Program-made: the position numbers and the translations under genes
Assembly: GCA_003216255.1 (NCBI GenBank)
Contig: QCJD01000001.1
Coordinates: 1-64,000 of the forward strand
Direction: 5' to 3'
DNA length: 64,000 nucleotides
DNA from: Pelagibacteraceae bacterium AG-404-N13
GTDB taxonomy: Bacteria > Pseudomonadota > Alphaproteobacteria > Pelagibacterales > Pelagibacteraceae
The notes under the pieces: generated by a model
Database searches by the model: none
What the model saw: only the letters and a program-made list of their open reading frames with translations
Told to the model about the DNA's origin: nothing
In this document: piece by piece, positions 22,296 through 30,055 of the stretch
Layout: each line of letters begins with the position of its first letter
How positions within the stretch are numbered: position 1 is the stretch's first letter

Positions 22296-23186
22296 ATGAA
22301 AATGAGTAAATCTACTTCAATGATTTGTGCTTTAATTACAACTTTTATTTGGGGTACAGCATTTATCGCTCAAGATACTGGAATGGATAATATAGGGCCA
22401 TTAACATTTAACTTTTCTAGATTTTTTGTTGGATTTATTACAATTTTGCCTATTGCATTATTTTTTGAGAGAAAAAAAATACTTGTAGAAATAAGTTCAA
22501 ATTCAAAAGTTTTTTATAAATATCTTCTTTTTATGGGGATATCTTTATTTTTAGGAACTTATTTACAACAAGCTTCTCTTCAATATACAAATATTGCAAA
22601 TGCAGCTTTTTTTACAGTGTTTTATGTACCTCTAGTACCTATCTTATTATTTTTTATTTATGCAAGTAAAGTTCACTGGAGCATTTGGCCTTCCATAGGT
22701 CTGTGTGTTTTTGGTGTTTATCTTTTAAGTGATTTTTCTAATTCAGAAGTAATGTTAGGTGACGCATTAGTAATTTTATGTTCAGTATTTTGGGCTCTTC
22801 ATATTATTTTTGCTGGAAAGTTCATGGAGACTTTCAATATACCCATTTTTTATGCTGCGCTTCAGGCATTACTTGTTGCAACTTTATCTCTTTTATTTTC
22901 ATATTTTTTTGAAGAAATTAAATTTTCAAATATTCTTTTAGAAAGTAGTTCTATTGTTTATGCTGGTGTTTTTTCTGGTGGAATTGCATTTACACTTCAA
23001 ATGTTTGCTCAAAAAAATATAGAAGAAGCCCCAGCAGCAATTATATATTCATTGGAGGGTGTTTTTGCAGCATTGGCAGGTTGGATAATATTAAATCAAT
23101 TTTTAGACTTAAGCAATATAATTGGTTGTTGCTTAATTTTGATCGCTGTAATATTTTCACAACTTGCTCCAACTTCAAAAAATTAA
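22296..23186 (+). CDS. EamA/DMT-superfamily transporter
   Basis: This is a 296-aa membrane protein with about ten hydrophobic helices in two EamA repeats. The first begins TTFIWGTAFIAQDTG and the second LVILCSVFWALHIIFAG; the C-terminal half has APAAIIYSLEGVFAAL, typical of metabolite exporters in the drug/metabolite transporter superfamily. Translation may start at either of two near ATGs (MKMSK). It lies 24 bp after the dioxygenase and converges on uppP. Substrate cannot be assigned. Confidence 0.85.
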   Translation: MKMSKSTSMICALITTFIWGTAFIAQDTGMDNIGPLTFNFSRFFVGFITILPIALFFERKKILVEISSNSKVFYKYLLFMGISLFLGTYLQQASLQYTNIANAAFFTVFYVPLVPILLFFIYASKVHWSIWPSIGLCVFGVYLLSDFSNSEVMLGDALVILCSVFWALHIIFAGKFMETFNIPIFYAALQALLVATLSLLFSYFFEEIKFSNILLESSSIVYAGVFSGGIAFTLQMFAQKNIEEAPAAIIYSLEGVFAALAGWIILNQFLDLSNIIGCCLILIAVIFSQLAPTSKN

Positions 23187-23950
23187 TTATAAACTATTAC
23201 AAAAAGTATTAAGGCTAAAAGTATTCTATAATATATAAATAAGTTTAAATTAAAATTTTTTATATAAATTAAAAAATACTTAATTGTCAGATAAGAAATT
23301 ACAAATGATAGAATAATTGAATAAAAGAAAATAAAATTTAAAACAACTCCAGTATCAAAAATATCTTTAAGACCCAAAAAGCTAGCACCACTTATTGCAG
23401 GTATAGACAAATAGAATGCAATCTTCGAAGAGTCTATTCTGTCAAAATTTAAAAATCTTGATGCTGTTATAACTATCCCCGATCTACTCACACCCGGAAT
23501 TATTGCCAAAACTTGAAGTAAACCAATTATAATAATATTTTTATAACTTAGTTTTGTATCCAACTTATTGTTTATTTTTGATCTATCTGAAAAATATAGT
23601 AGAATTCCAAAAAATAACGTGGTCCATGCAATTACTTCTAAATTTCTGAAATAATCAATTAAACCAGTAGAATAAAAAATATAACCGACAATTATTAACG
23701 GTATAGATCCTACAATAATTAAGAGCGCTAAACTTTTATTTTTTGTTAAATTAAATAAATCTTCTCTAAAGTAAAATATGATTGCAATTAAAGACCCCAA
23801 GTGAAGACTAATATCAAGCTGTAAAGAGCTAAAATTAAAATTATTAATTTTTGAAAATAAAATTAAATGAGCTGAGGAGCTTACAGGTATAAATTCAAAT
23901 ACACCTTGAATGATTGCTAAAAAAAAAGTTTCAATGTATTGAGAAATCAT
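23183..23950 (-). CDS. uppP: Undecaprenyl-diphosphatase UppP (BacA)
   Basis: This integral membrane phosphatase recycles undecaprenyl pyrophosphate for peptidoglycan and polysaccharide synthesis. At 255 aa it has about eight helices. The signature GVFEFIPVSSSAHLIL is at residues 16-31 (Glu and Ser residues of the active site), and PGVSRSGIVITASR is near residue 157. It overlaps the EamA gene end by 4 bp and has a 175-bp divergent spacer to gltD. Confidence 0.92.
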   Translation of the reverse strand: MISQYIETFFLAIIQGVFEFIPVSSSAHLILFSKINNFNFSSLQLDISLHLGSLIAIIFYFREDLFNLTKNKSLALLIIVGSIPLIIVGYIFYSTGLIDYFRNLEVIAWTTLFFGILLYFSDRSKINNKLDTKLSYKNIIIIGLLQVLAIIPGVSRSGIVITASRFLNFDRIDSSKIAFYLSIPAISGASFLGLKDIFDTGVVLNFIFFYSIILSFVISYLTIKYFLIYIKNFNLNLFIYYRILLALILFVIVYN

Positions 23951-24002
23951 TACAATTTTACTTGTTAATTAAAAGTTACCCAAAATAAAGCAATAACTTT
24001 AG

Positions 24003-24019
24003 TGCATAACTATTATGCA
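24003..24019. promoter_or_regulatory. 17-bp palindrome upstream of gltDB, NtrC/NtrX-like geometry
   Basis: TGCATAACTATTATGCA has 7-bp inverted arms around 3 bases, about 107 bp before the gltD start. The outer TGCA...TGCA with 17-bp total length matches the geometry of NtrC-family operators (TGCACC-N5-GGTGCA), though the inner bases differ. A nitrogen-responsive NtrY/NtrX-type regulator is the natural candidate, since glutamate synthase is a classic nitrogen gene. This is inference from one site. Confidence 0.45.
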
Positions 24020-24084
24020 TAAATTTCTAAAATCCCTTATTTTAATGGTTTTTTTAAAATATAAGACATAAATTATGACCTTAT

Positions 24085-24090
24085 TATAGT
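24085..24090 (+). promoter_or_regulatory. Candidate -10 box of gltDB
   Basis: TATAGT lies 36 bp upstream of the gltD start, within reach of the palindrome at 24003. A -35 at the usual distance is poor (TAAGAC), which would fit an activated promoter, but the assignment is weak. Confidence 0.3.
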
Positions 24091-24125
24091 TTATTCAGGA
24101 AAAATATTGTTATATAGCAATCGCG

Positions 24126-25559
24126 ATGTCAGAAAAAATGTTAAAATTTATTGATATTGATCAAAAAAACCCCTCAAAAAGGAATGAAATAGAGAGAAAG
24201 AGTGATTTTAACGAAATATATGCTGAATTTATTCATGAAAATGCAAATAAACAGTCTAGTAGATGCTCGCAATGTGGAGTTCCATTTTGCCAAGTTCATT
24301 GTCCTTTAAGCAATAATATCCCAGATTGGCTAAAATTAACTGCAGAAAACAGACTTGAAGAGGCTTATGAATTATCACAAAGCACAAATAATATGCCTGA
24401 AGTATGTGGAAGAATTTGTCCACAAGATAGATTGTGCGAAGGAAATTGTGTTATTGAACAATCGGGTCATGGAACAGTAACAATTGGTTCAATAGAAAAA
24501 TATATAACAGAGACAGCATGGACAAAAGGCTGGGTAAAACCGATAGAGGTTAAAAATGAAATTAATCAAAGCGTTGGTATTATTGGAGCAGGTCCAGCTG
24601 GATTAGCATGTGGAGAAGAACTAAGAAAAAAAGGTTACCAAATTACCATATACGATCGTTATGACAGAGCAGGAGGTTTATTAATTTATGGGATACCAAA
24701 TTTTAAATTAGAAAAACATGTAGTTAATAGGAGAATTAAACTTTTGAAAGATGGGGGTATTAACTTTGTTCTTAACTTTGAAGTTGGAAAAGATTTAACT
24801 TTAAAAGATCTTAGAGAAAAACATGATTCAATATTAATTGCGACTGGTGTTTATAAACCTAGAGAAGTTGAAATACCAGGAGGAGATTTAGAAAATATTT
24901 TCCCTGCAATGCAATTTTTAACAGCATCTAATCGAAAAGGCTTAGGAGACAAAGTTGAATTATTTGACAATGGAATTTTAGATGCAAAAGATAAAGATGT
25001 AATAGTTATAGGTGGTGGTGATACTGCTATGGATTGTGTTAGGACATCAATTAGACAAAAAGCAAAATCAGTAAAATGTATTTACAGACGAGATAAAGAA
25101 AATATGCCAGGATCAGCAAGAGAGGTTGCGAATGCTGAGGAAGAAGGTATTGAATTTATTTGGTTAAGTAATCCGAAAGAATTTAAAGGTAATAAAAAAG
25201 TTCAAAGCTTAATAGTTGATAAAATTAAGTTAGGAGACCCAGATGAAAGTGGAAGAAGAAAACCAATAATAGAAAAAAATTATGAATTTGAAATTAAGGC
25301 AGATATAGTTATAAAAGCTTTGGGTTTTGATCCAGAAGAACTTCCTTTATTATTTGACGAGAATAGATTGCAAACTACTAAATGGGGAACAATAAAAACA
25401 AATTTTGATACAATGGAAACAAATATACCTGGTGTATTTGCTGCTGGTGATATTGTAAGAGGAGCATCACTTGTTGTTTGGGCAATAAAAGATGGAAGAG
25501 ATGCAGCGTTGTCTATAGATAATTATTTACAATTAAAAAAAAATAAGAAAGTAGCTTAA
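24126..25559 (+). CDS. gltD: Glutamate synthase (NADPH) small subunit
   Basis: This is the beta subunit of glutamate synthase, which takes electrons from NADPH via FAD and passes them to the large subunit. At 477 aa it is full length. The N-terminal Fe-S segment has CSQCGVPFCQVHCP and CGRICPQDRLCEGNC. The FAD-binding GAGPAGLACGEEL is near residue 153, the NAD(P) motif GGGDTAMDC near residue 299, and the final FAD motif GVFAAGDI near residue 437. Its stop shares a base with the gltB start (TAATG). The order gltD-gltB is the reverse of E. coli. Confidence 0.95.
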   Translation: MSEKMLKFIDIDQKNPSKRNEIERKSDFNEIYAEFIHENANKQSSRCSQCGVPFCQVHCPLSNNIPDWLKLTAENRLEEAYELSQSTNNMPEVCGRICPQDRLCEGNCVIEQSGHGTVTIGSIEKYITETAWTKGWVKPIEVKNEINQSVGIIGAGPAGLACGEELRKKGYQITIYDRYDRAGGLLIYGIPNFKLEKHVVNRRIKLLKDGGINFVLNFEVGKDLTLKDLREKHDSILIATGVYKPREVEIPGGDLENIFPAMQFLTASNRKGLGDKVELFDNGILDAKDKDVIVIGGGDTAMDCVRTSIRQKAKSVKCIYRRDKENMPGSAREVANAEEEGIEFIWLSNPKEFKGNKKVQSLIVDKIKLGDPDESGRRKPIIEKNYEFEIKADIVIKALGFDPEELPLLFDENRLQTTKWGTIKTNFDTMETNIPGVFAAGDIVRGASLVVWAIKDGRDAALSIDNYLQLKKNKKVA

Positions 25560-28500
25560 TGAATTTAAGAAAAAAAAATTTACAAATTTTAAAAAAAAAT
25601 TTTATTTATGATGAGTCAATGGAACATGACTCTTGTGGAGTTGGATTAGTAGCATCAACAGAAGGTATAAAGTCCAGAAAAGTTGTTGAGCAAGGAATAG
25701 AGGCTCTAAAAGCAGTCTGGCATAGAGGAGCGATTGATGCAGACGGAAAAACGGGAGATGGCGCAGGTATTCACATTGAAATACCTTCAGACTTCTTTAT
25801 TGAAAAAATAGAAAATTATGGACGTAAATATGATGGAGGAATAATTTGTGTTGGAATGATTTTTTTACCTAGAAATGACTTTAATTCACAAGAAAAATGC
25901 AAAACAAATATAGAAACTGAAATTTTAAAAAATAATTTTAATATTTACAGATGGAGGCAGGTTCCAATTAATACTAGTGTATTAGGTTCAAAAGCTGAAA
26001 TAACTAGACCTGAAATAACTCAAGTTTTATTCACTCCTAAAGACAAAACTTTAAATGGAAAAGATTTAGAGAGGAAACTTTATGAAACTAGAAGAAAAAT
26101 AGAAAAGGAGTGTTTAAAAAATAATTTAAACCAGTTCTATATTTGTTCTTTTAGTTCTAAGTCAATTATTTATAAAGGAATGTTCTTAGCAGAGTCTTTA
26201 TCAGAATTTTATAAAGACTTAAATGATGAAAGATTTATATCTAGGTATGCTATTTTTCATCAAAGATTTTCAACAAATACTGCTCCTAGTTGGGACCTAG
26301 CTCAACCATTCAGATCTATTGCTCACAATGGCGAAATAAATACTTTAAAGGGTAACATTAATTGGATGAAAGTTCATGAAGAAGAAATGTTTAGTCCTAT
26401 GTTTGAAGATATGGAAAATTTAAAACCGGTAATTCCCAAAGATAATTCAGACTCAGCTTCATTGGATAATGTTTTTGAATTATTGAGTATATCTGGACAC
26501 TCAGCACCCTTAGCTAAAATTATGTTAATACCCGATGCATGGTCTAAAAAAAGCAAAATACTACCAAGAGAACATTTGCAATTGTTTAATTTTTTAAATA
26601 GTACCATGGAACCGTGGGATGGTCCTGCAGCTATAGCTGCTACTGATAACGAATGGGTTATTGCAGCAACAGATAGAAATGGTTTAAGACCTTTAAGATT
26701 CACAGTTACCAAAGATAAATTATTATTTGCAGGTTCAGAGACTGGAATGGTTAATGTAGATGAAAATAAAATTGTTAATAAAGGAAGATTAGGGCCAGGA
26801 GAAATTATTGGTATAAGAATTGAAAAAGGAAAAGTTTATAATAATAGCCAAATAAAAAATTATTTAGCTAAAGAATATAAAAATTTTAATAATCAAATTA
26901 TAGATTTAGATAAAAAATTTTTAATTAAAGATGAAAAAAAACAATTTTCTGGAGAAGAATTAAGGATCTTTCAACATTGTTTTGGTTATAGTATTGAAGA
27001 CTTGGAGCTAATCCTTCACCCAATGGTAGAAGATTCTAAAGAGGCAACAGGATCTATGGGAGATGATACACCTCTAGCAGTTCTTTCAGATAAATATCGG
27101 CCACTTTATCATTTTTTTAGACAAAATTTTAGTCAAGTGACTAACCCACCAATTGATTCTTTAAGAGAGAATAAAGTTATGAGTCTTAAGACTCGATTTG
27201 GAAATTTAGGTAATATCTTAGACTTTAAAAATTTAACCGAAGAAAATATTTATGTCCTAGATAGTCCTATATTGTCAAATTCTCAATTTAATAAATTTAT
27301 TAATTATTTTGGTGATAATTCCAAAATTCTAGACTGTACTTTTAAAAAGGAAGATAATCTTGAATCTGCATTGATTAACCTTAAAAATAATGCTGAAAAA
27401 TCAGTTCGAGAGGGAATCAAACAGTTAATACTTACTGATAAAAATATAACAAAAGATAAGTTACCAATTCCAATGCTATTGTGCATTGGTGCTATTAATT
27501 CTCATTTAACTAATCTTGGATTGAGAGGATATGTTTCGATTAATGTTCAAACAGGAGATGCTCTAGATACCCATTCTTTTGCAACCTTAATTGGTGTTGG
27601 GGCAACAACTGTTAATCCCTATTTAGCTTTTGATAGCATACATCAAAGGTACTCAAAAATGCTTTTTGGTAATTTGAGTTTTGATGAGTGTGTATCAAGA
27701 TATATTAAATCAGTTAATCTTGGATTGTTAAAAATTATGTCTAAGATGGGTATTTCAGTGTTAAGTTCATATAGAGGAGGATGTAATTTTGAAACAGTGG
27801 GATTAAGCAGGACACTAGTAAAAGATTTTTTTCCAGGAATATTATCAAAAATTTCTGGAATTGGATTAAATGGAATTGAGAAGAAAATAAGAGATATTCA
27901 TTTTGACAGTTTTCAATCTAATTCTAAAGTTCTACCAATCGGTGGAATTTATAAATATAGAAAAAATGGCGAAACTCATCAGTATCAAGGTAAGTTAATA
28001 CACCTAATTCAATCAGCTGTTACGCAAAATTCCTACGATATTTATAAAAAATATGTTCACGGAATTTACAATCTTAAACCAATTAATTTAAGAGATTTAA
28101 TTGATTTTAAGATAAAAAAACCAATAAACATTGATGAAGTAGAATCTGTTCCAAGTATTATGAAAAGATTTGGAAGCGGAAGCATGTCTCATGGCGCTTT
28201 ATCAAAAGAAGCACACGAAACTTTAGCAATTGGAATGAATAGAATTAAGGGTGCATCATGTAGTGGCGAAGGAGGAGAAGATGAAAAGAGATTTAAAGTA
28301 AAAGAAAATGGAGATAGCGAAAATTCTAGAGTTAAACAAATAGCATCTGCTAGATTTGGAGTTACAATTAATTATTTAAATAATTGTAATGAAATAGAAA
28401 TTAAAATTGCACAAGGTGCAAAACCTGGGGAAGGAGGCCAACTTCCTGGATTTAAAGTTACTGATGAAATAGCAAGGCTAAGACATTCAACACCTGGAGT

Positions 28501-30055
28501 TACATTGATTTCTCCTCCTCCACATCATGATATTTACTCCATAGAAGATCTGGCACAATTAATTTATGATCTTAAACAGATAAATCCTAAAGCAAGAATA
28601 AGTGTTAAATTAGTTGCATCTTCAGGAATTGGAACAATTGCAGCTGGCGTTGCTAAAGCAAAAGCAGACATAATTTTAATAGCGGGACATTCAGGGGGTA
28701 CTGGAGCGACTCCTCAAACAAGCGTCAAATATGTTGGAATTCCATGGGAGATGGGTCTAACCGAAGCTAATCAGGTGTTAACACTAAATAATTTACGACA
28801 TAAAGTTACACTAAAAACTGATGGGGGTATAAAAACTGGCAGAGATGTAGTAATAGCTGCAATGATGGGAGCTGAAGAGTATGGCGTTGCCACAACTGCT
28901 CTTGTCGCAATGGGTTGTATTATGGTTAGACAATGCCATTCAAATACTTGTCCTGTAGGCATTTGTACACAAGATGAAAAATTAAGAGAAAAATTTAGTG
29001 GAACCCCAGAGAAAGTTGTAAATCTTTTTAAATTTCTTGCTGAAGAAGTAAGAGAGATTCTAGCAGAATTAGGATTTAAAAATTTAAATGAGATAATTGG
29101 AAGGACTGATCTACTAAAACAAATTAGCAAAGGTTCCTCCAATTTAGATGACTTAGACTTAAACCCTCTATTTGTTCAAGCTGATCCTGGTTTAAACAAG
29201 AGATATTGTGACAATAAAATTATTAATTCTGTTCCAGATACTTTAGATCAGGAAATATGGCCTAAAATAGAAGAGCATATTAATAAAGAAGAGAATGTGG
29301 ATAAAGTATTTAAAATTAAAAATACTCATAGAGCAGTAGGAACTAGAATTTCTTATCATCTATATAAAAAATTTGGCAACGATATGCTAAATGAAAATTC
29401 AGTTTCTTTAAAATTTGAAGGATCGGCTGGACAATCTTTTGGCGCTTTTGGCATAAAAGGATTAAAGTTAAACTTAAAAGGTGACGCAAATGATTATGTT
29501 GGAAAAGGATTGTCAGGAGGAACTATAGTAATCAAACTACCTGAAGAAAGTAATATAATTTCTAATGAGAATACAATAATTGGAAATACTGTTTTATATG
29601 GAGCTACATCTGGATATTTATATGCAGCTGGTCAGGCGGGAGAAAGATTTGCTGTTAGAAATTCTGGAGCATCAGCAGTAATAGAAGGGTGTGATTCTAA
29701 CGGATGTGAATATATGACTGGTGGAAATGTTGTTATTCTAGGTGAAGTTGGAGATAATTTTGCAGCTGGAATGACAGGAGGAATGGTATTCGTTTATGAT
29801 GCTAATAATAATTTTGAAAAAAAAGTCAATCCAGAAAGTGTTATTTGGCAACGACCAGAAACAGATTATTGGATAAATTTTCTAAAAAATTTAATTTTAA
29901 ATCATTCAACGGAAACAGATTCAATTTTTGCAAAAAATTTAATAAATAATTTTGATAATGAAATTGAAAATTTTTTTCAAGTATGTCCAAAAGAAATGTT
30001 AGATAAACTTGATAATCCTATATCGTTGAATAAAAATTTAAGTGTTGCAATTTAA
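25559..30055 (+). CDS. gltB: Glutamate synthase (NADPH) large subunit
   Basis: This is the alpha subunit, converting glutamine plus 2-oxoglutarate to two glutamate. At 1498 aa it has the full order of domains. The N-terminal glutamine amidotransferase has Cys26 (HDSCGVGLVAS) exposed by propeptide removal. The central domain is followed by the FMN/2OG-binding domain with GSMSHGALSKEA and GAKPGEGGQLPG. The 3Fe-4S cysteines are in QCHSNTCPVGIC near residue 1130. The C-terminal GXGXG beta-helix has repeated G-G-T/N-V patterns. Together with GltD it forms the GOGAT arm of ammonium assimilation. It overlaps the next, convergent gene by 4 bp. Confidence 0.96.
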   Translation: MNLRKKNLQILKKNFIYDESMEHDSCGVGLVASTEGIKSRKVVEQGIEALKAVWHRGAIDADGKTGDGAGIHIEIPSDFFIEKIENYGRKYDGGIICVGMIFLPRNDFNSQEKCKTNIETEILKNNFNIYRWRQVPINTSVLGSKAEITRPEITQVLFTPKDKTLNGKDLERKLYETRRKIEKECLKNNLNQFYICSFSSKSIIYKGMFLAESLSEFYKDLNDERFISRYAIFHQRFSTNTAPSWDLAQPFRSIAHNGEINTLKGNINWMKVHEEEMFSPMFEDMENLKPVIPKDNSDSASLDNVFELLSISGHSAPLAKIMLIPDAWSKKSKILPREHLQLFNFLNSTMEPWDGPAAIAATDNEWVIAATDRNGLRPLRFTVTKDKLLFAGSETGMVNVDENKIVNKGRLGPGEIIGIRIEKGKVYNNSQIKNYLAKEYKNFNNQIIDLDKKFLIKDEKKQFSGEELRIFQHCFGYSIEDLELILHPMVEDSKEATGSMGDDTPLAVLSDKYRPLYHFFRQNFSQVTNPPIDSLRENKVMSLKTRFGNLGNILDFKNLTEENIYVLDSPILSNSQFNKFINYFGDNSKILDCTFKKEDNLESALINLKNNAEKSVREGIKQLILTDKNITKDKLPIPMLLCIGAINSHLTNLGLRGYVSINVQTGDALDTHSFATLIGVGATTVNPYLAFDSIHQRYSKMLFGNLSFDECVSRYIKSVNLGLLKIMSKMGISVLSSYRGGCNFETVGLSRTLVKDFFPGILSKISGIGLNGIEKKIRDIHFDSFQSNSKVLPIGGIYKYRKNGETHQYQGKLIHLIQSAVTQNSYDIYKKYVHGIYNLKPINLRDLIDFKIKKPINIDEVESVPSIMKRFGSGSMSHGALSKEAHETLAIGMNRIKGASCSGEGGEDEKRFKVKENGDSENSRVKQIASARFGVTINYLNNCNEIEIKIAQGAKPGEGGQLPGFKVTDEIARLRHSTPGVTLISPPPHHDIYSIEDLAQLIYDLKQINPKARISVKLVASSGIGTIAAGVAKAKADIILIAGHSGGTGATPQTSVKYVGIPWEMGLTEANQVLTLNNLRHKVTLKTDGGIKTGRDVVIAAMMGAEEYGVATTALVAMGCIMVRQCHSNTCPVGICTQDEKLREKFSGTPEKVVNLFKFLAEEVREILAELGFKNLNEIIGRTDLLKQISKGSSNLDDLDLNPLFVQADPGLNKRYCDNKIINSVPDTLDQEIWPKIEEHINKEENVDKVFKIKNTHRAVGTRISYHLYKKFGNDMLNENSVSLKFEGSAGQSFGAFGIKGLKLNLKGDANDYVGKGLSGGTIVIKLPEESNIISNENTIIGNTVLYGATSGYLYAAGQAGERFAVRNSGASAVIEGCDSNGCEYMTGGNVVILGEVGDNFAAGMTGGMVFVYDANNNFEKKVNPESVIWQRPETDYWINFLKNLILNHSTETDSIFAKNLINNFDNEIENFFQVCPKEMLDKLDNPISLNKNLSVAI

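Follow-up and report, generated by a model that had tools for sequence, protein, structure and literature searches.

A conserved palindrome between uppP and gltD in SAR11 bacteria as a candidate NtrX operator of nitrogen assimilation

The window, i.e., the whole stretch of 64,000 nucleotides that was analysed, comes from the genome of Pelagibacteraceae bacterium AG-404-N13, whose assembly amounts to 1.17 Mb in 40 contigs and is 83% complete. The interval 23951-24125 is the entire 175-base divergent spacer between uppP on the minus strand and gltD on the plus strand (Table 1). The latter gene was labelled glutamate synthase in the first-pass annotation, correctly so, as it exceeds the cut-off of TIGR01318. 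Among the best 80 of 538 relatives, the closest named gltD is that of the SAR11 single cell AG-430-A09 (Pelagibacteraceae), with 95% identity. An Rfam search of the window yielded nothing at the gathering score besides four tRNAs, and a search of the spacer gave just two chance-level matches (E-values of 3.1 and 4.5).

Table 1. Features of the uppP-gltD region and the small gene that faces glnA in the same genome
Feature	Position	Strand	Remarks
uppP	23183-23950	-	BacA-type undecaprenyl-diphosphatase, divergent neighbour; PF02673, 205 bits versus 33
Putative uppP -35, TTGCTT	23988-23993	-	by eye
CAAT	23991-23994	+	on the minus strand, ATTG of the putative uppP -35
Site 1, TGCATAACTATTATGCA	24003-24019	.	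palindrome TGCATA-N5-TATGCA, i.e., T-GCA-N9-TGC-A; putative operator
Element 2, AAGACATAAATTATGACCT	24063-24081	.	another conserved palindrome (AGGTCA-N7-TGACCT), at 61 bp from site 1, centre to centre
Weak -35-like region, AGTTTATT	24088-24095	+	putative gltD promoter; TTT position conserved in the alignment; by eye
Putative gltD -10, TATATA	24111-24116	+	alignment; by eye; start expected near 24123
gltD	24126-25559	+	glutamate synthase small subunit; TIGR01318, 528 bits versus cut-off of 483
gltB	25559-30055	+	putative glutamate synthase large subunit; ORF of 1498 aa, named from its sequence
Small ORF facing glnA	L162:1513-1734		own genome, contig 13; uncharacterised

Within the spacer lies a 17-bp palindrome, here called site 1, which the first-pass annotation had noticed ahead of gltDB and which was confirmed to the letter. 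Its geometry, described there as that of NtrC-family sites (outer TGCA...TGCA, 17 bp), was borne out as the T-GCA-N9-TGC-A geometry of NtrC and NtrX sites. The palindrome alone carries no weight, since inverted repeats with 7-bp arms and a 3-base spacer occur in the window at chance level (18 observed vs. 17.9 expected from 100 dinucleotide shuffles). TGCA-N9-TGCA was found once, vs. 0.77 expected from shuffles. The fuller pattern TGCATA-N5-TATGCA, which was picked after the site was seen, occurs once in the window vs. in none of 100 shuffles, and a second place for the 17-mer was not found in the window at up to three mismatches. It is the conservation and the location of site 1 in relatives that place it beyond chance.

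The promoter parts of the spacer were assigned by eye. A -10 had been supposed ~65 bp downstream of site 1, which is doubtful, as the conserved TATATA is found ~92 bp downstream, adjoining the ATG. With a start near 24123, the gltD transcript would therefore be almost leaderless. Counted from the putative starts, again by eye, site 1 lies around position -112 for gltD and -54 for uppP, with element 2 around -51 for gltD. The distance from site 1 to CAAT is exactly 8 bases in 106 of 110 distinct upstreams.

The best upstream 17-mer was scored at 124 gltD loci with a readable 5' end, which include some truncated ones and some duplicates from the same genome. All 12 letters of TGCATA-N5-TATGCA were present in 61 of them, 11 in 39, 10 in 14, 9 in seven, and 7 in three. 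Removal of identical upstreams and of two loci of the outgroup family f2 left 110 distinct Pelagibacteraceae upstreams, and 55 of these are exact, 92 have at least 11 of the 12 letters, and 106 have at least 10. Among 11,000 shuffles, at least 11 letters were reached in 0.03% and at least 10 in 0.4%. Thus, the palindrome is conserved in related strains, where its absence had been named in the first-pass annotation as a reason to abandon it. Many upstreams stem from close relatives, and the counts are, therefore, not independent; clustering of the gltD upstreams at 80% identity gave 37 groups, two being f2. At the six mirrored arm positions, the 110 upstreams show 75 one-sided changes, no compensatory ones, and one non-pairing double change. 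Arm position 6 is A in 99% of upstreams. Arm changes that are one-sided and never compensatory indicate a DNA site rather than an RNA hairpin. An RNA element at gltD was rejected, given the lack of Rfam support and of compensatory changes. As judged from the compared sequences, site 1 is very probably a real, conserved DNA operator.

The spacing between site 1 and element 2 is fixed. Of 112 distinct upstreams, 102 have 60 or 61 bp between the two centres and 109 have 59-62 bp, in a count that used a fixed scan range and missed the f2 copies of site 1. The three outlying spacings are 19 (L031), 34, and 55 (L060). Like site 1, element 2 changes without compensation. In the genome of the window, its pattern occurs at up to two mismatches in 14 places, and is thus rarer than the reversed control with 73; the gltD place is the sole intergenic one among the 14. 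In f2, GTCA-N7-TGAC was found in 20 of 20 distinct upstreams, and a copy of site 1 stands exactly 61 bp from it in 13 of these; nine of the copies keep 11 of the 12 letters, two keep 10, and two keep 9. The other seven show no copy at this distance. Of 50 distances listed, 61 bp came out on top, with a mean score of 7.8 against 5.55 for the runner-up. The f2 copy shares bases of its left arm with the uppP start codon, and coding may thus constrain some letters of this arm. The exact TGCATA-N5-TATGCA was not found at gltD in f2 genomes, where all eight exact matches are within genes. Element 2 is more widely kept than site 1.

Across 147 Pelagibacterales genomes, the exact pattern was found at 58 places in 51 genomes, and its reversed control at none. 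These places comprise 33 at gltD, 13 between regA and a gene for an Orn/DAP/Arg-type decarboxylase, 10 in coding sequence (eight of them in f2), one at amtB (G075), and one at another intergenic position (L065). The sites are thus concentrated at few loci, mainly gltD, and not equally common at unrelated genes, as they would be in the other case against the palindrome that the first-pass annotation had foreseen. A scan of 19 genomes of family f1 with one mismatch gave, among the matches listed, 73 loci, with four places counted twice, of which 22 were intergenic and 51 coding. The intergenic ones were eight at gltD, five at regA/decarboxylase, two at amtB (L062, L204), one at a small ORF (L200), one at a glyoxalase-like gene (L205), and five at unrelated genes (L192, L213, L214, L220, L232). 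The genome of the window has three places with no more than one mismatch, each of them between genes, i.e., at gltD, at regA/decarboxylase, and beside a small ORF; of 12 two-mismatch places examined there, three are intergenic, at unrelated genes. At L205:1001-1017 (G064, genus g5), TGCATGGCTGCTATGCA lies 79 bases upstream of the glyoxalase-like gene, and G061 has the same 17 letters.

Sites had also been predicted at glnA and amtB. For amtB, the prediction holds in two other genera, with the one-mismatch sites already mentioned, and fails in a survey of 30 amt loci apart from the exact intergenic site in G075 (genus g7) and a two-mismatch place in G012. For glnA, it holds for the left half of the site: TGCATA is invariant upstream of the gene in 8 of 8 genomes examined and is followed by GGTG(T/A)TAT in six, and only part of the right half is there. 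A small ORF that converges on glnA was found between this gene and a sufA-like gene in 8 of 19 genomes searched; the remaining genomes gave a weak match, a match at another place, or none. Neither Pfam nor NCBIfam gave a family above cut-off for this ORF. Upstream of it, TGCATA-type half-sites occur in tandem, with up to three of them, in seven of the eight genomes (not in G124). G065 contains a 64-residue ORF (L358:1453-1644) with AGCATAACTGATATGCA 44 bases upstream, and this ORF is weakly similar to the small ORF beside glnA (E-value of 0.06).

A profile made from 45 gltD sites only was run on 15 genomes, with 150 candidates scored in each. It ranked gltD first in 9 of 12 f1 genomes (eight g1 genomes and G124, with G062 and G068 confirmed), and gltD was absent from its listed places in G075, G064, and G065. 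It listed glnA in five genomes (G012, G067, G062, G071, and G124), the small gene in four (G012, G067, G000, and G065), amtB in two (G064 and G075), and regA/decarboxylase in G000, G068, and G071. Since E-values outside gltD were weak (0.02-4.2) and coding places, i.e., 10 of 18 loci examined, scored alike, the profile scan supports a regulon but does not prove it. In phage-infected SAR11, a joint rise of glnA, gltB, gltD, and amt is described (PMC12753301), which fits the explanation favored below. From the places at which its copies stand, site 1 probably belongs to a nitrogen-assimilation regulon.

The copies between regA and the decarboxylase gene are of another kind. Among 27 distinct spacers, those that contain the site have it after a conserved promoter-like TTTACA-N17-TAAWKG (by eye) and before eight T. 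Its distance to the decarboxylase start is fixed at 35-39 bases, and that to regA varies from 92 to 127. A hairpin of 10-13 pairs followed by a T-run is formed in 17 of 17 leaders of the TGCATA type, with internal mismatches in L415 and L231. Four Pelagibacter leaders without TGCATA (L292, L385, L386, and L383) keep a hairpin of other letters; thus, stem and U-run are kept despite letter changes, as in a terminator. In six leaders of other genera, no clear hairpin was seen. These copies resemble intrinsic terminator or attenuator hairpins, unlike the gltD site, where both a T-run and compensatory changes are lacking. Their interpretation as independent operators was withdrawn, given their position downstream of a conserved promoter and within a terminator-like hairpin. 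Yet, they have the same core as the gltD site and may serve in both ways. The leader of the decarboxylase gene, divergent from regA, with its terminator-like hairpin and eight U (L161:1420-1550 and relatives), possibly acts as an attenuator.

In six genomes, the carriers of a Fis-type helix-turn-helix (HTH) were NtrX, RegA, one extra ORF (G012, 368-aa frame), and very weak matches. An NtrX domain was detected in 22 of 24 genomes and not found in G050 or in the 83% complete genome of the window (G000), and RegA orthologues were found in 23 of 24 (not in G040). Each positive genome has one full-length protein with an activator domain. Four proteins with a sigma54-activator domain were typed and scored best as NtrX, with 451-537 bits, below the cut-off of 600, and far lower as NtrC. 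A simple pattern search for the GAFTGA loop in 11 of the 22 NtrX ORFs, i.e., those listed, gave nothing save one unrelated string. In an alignment with Brucella NtrX (5m7n), the recognition helix of SAR11 NtrX, GMERSALHRKLK, is identical. A place resembling site 1 before ntrY was not found in 10 genomes at up to two mismatches. In other organisms, NtrX is autoregulatory.

The consensus of NtrC operators is TGCACC-N5-GGTGCA. Site 1 shares with these operators the length of 17 bp, the outer TGCA...TGCA, and similar target genes, but its inner pairs in the window are TA/TA instead of CC/GG, so that the NtrC core is not present. The NtrC regulon includes glnA, amtB, and sometimes gltBD (PMC5343134). 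However, the two-component systems reported for SAR11 are four, i.e., PhoRB, NtrYX, EnvZ/OmpR, and RegBA, and the only sigma factors in the same report are sigma70 and sigma32, with no sigma54 on its record (PMC13198564). Given these reported systems and the NtrX-like typing of the four proteins, NtrC proper, which the first-pass annotation had suggested, was rejected as the binder, and its "NtrC" should read "NtrX-like, unproven." The motif GCA-N9-TGC has been proposed for NtrX from ChIP-seq in R. sphaeroides and a footprint in Brucella (PMC7240162; PMC9223101), and site 1 matches it in every GCA/TGC letter and in the 9-base gap. The latter account gives CAA-N2-5-TTG as the reported site in Brucella and Sinorhizobium, and the Sinorhizobium data did not yield GCA-N9-TGC (PMC9223101). 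In R. sphaeroides, NtrX is presented as a regulator of the cell envelope, and the study found no evidence that it controls nitrogen assimilation (PMC7240162). The known NtrX targets are ntrYX and cell-envelope genes, whereas the SAR11 copies are found at nitrogen-assimilation genes and none was found before ntrY in the 10 genomes scanned. Taking motif and recognition helix together, we consider NtrX, by a slight preponderance, the probable binder of site 1.

The alternative that deserves most attention is that not NtrX but RegA, the redox response regulator of RegBA, binds the site and that the copies at regA/decarboxylase reflect autoregulation. RegA has a Fis-type HTH and uses the same 15-bp frame, its orthologues are nearly ubiquitous in the genomes searched, 13 of the 58 exact sites adjoin its gene, and sites with at most two mismatches are present upstream of regA in 7 of 16 f1 rows. 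However, the boxes of RegA/PrrA carry G/C rather than A/T at the third base: the R. capsulatus sites are described as GCG-N9-CGC-like (PMC5359404), and the 21 complete SAR11 RegA rows all share one HTH. The GCG...CGC halves are not found in site 1, with GCA...TGC being exact in 55 of 110 upstreams and in most others. Furthermore, the copies near regA keep their distance to the decarboxylase start and not to regA, they are part of a terminator-like hairpin, and a site at regA was found in none of six f2 rows. Altogether, RegA is an unlikely binder. It is less likely, at around half the weight of the RegA alternative, that the protein belongs to a fold other than the Fis type. Only carriers of the Fis-type HTH were surveyed as candidates, and even among these an extra ORF and weak matches exist; yet, the letters and the 15-bp frame from G to C are those of Fis-type sites as described for NtrX (PMC7240162) and RegA (PMC5359404).

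Another question is which gene the operator serves. Its constant 8-base distance to the ATTG of the putative uppP -35 and the role of NtrX in the envelope of R. sphaeroides (PMC7240162) would agree with an envelope site for uppP, as in Rhodobacter, with gltD as a mere divergent neighbour. Against this, the distance to element 2 of gltD is equally fixed. It remains 61 bp in f2, although the copy there shares bases with the uppP start codon, a position from which an upstream activator of uppP could not act; in addition, the copies at glnA, the small gene, and amtB have no adjoining uppP. Since f2 retains the 61-bp distance to element 2 in spite of this overlap, gltD is the likelier target, and a site dedicated to uppP appears rather improbable. 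Site 1 may control uppP as well. Finally, the palindrome might be a product of chance or an RNA hairpin to which no protein binds, a view for which one may invoke the chance level of inverted repeats of such size in the window, the hairpin with eight U formed by the regA/decarboxylase copies, and the coding constraint on the left arm in f2. This is highly improbable, as site 1 is conserved at gltD, its arms change on one side only, its flanks fail to pair along their whole length, and Rfam gave no matches in window and spacer beyond those listed above.

We favor, at about even confidence, the explanation that site 1 is the operator at which a dimeric response regulator of the Fis type, most probably NtrX, acts on sigma70 promoters in a nitrogen set and raises gltDB expression. 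Phosphorylated NtrX would bind site 1 under nitrogen limitation and, together with a second factor at element 2, would raise gltDB expression. Besides gltDB, the set would take in glnA with its half-conserved site, the small gene that faces glnA, and, in two other genera, amtB. A more speculative extension, which we regard as improbable as a whole, is that SAR11 has a minimal nitrogen regulon in which NtrX works at sigma70 promoters, with neither PII nor NtrBC nor sigma54, and which consists of gltDB, glnA, amtB in some genera, and the small protein of ~56-71 residues. The latter, under control of tandem half-sites, might be a nitrogen-responsive modulator of glutamine synthetase that replaces PII.

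Smith and colleagues are said to have observed in 2013 that SAR11 responds to nitrogen limitation without PII. Searches of the open-access literature on SAR11, judged by titles and the openings of abstracts, gave no description of such an operator, and an earlier one is possible, as Smith et al. 2013 was outside this search. With a concrete operator, a list of genes, and a leading candidate regulator, the control of nitrogen metabolism in SAR11 becomes directly testable at the promoters.
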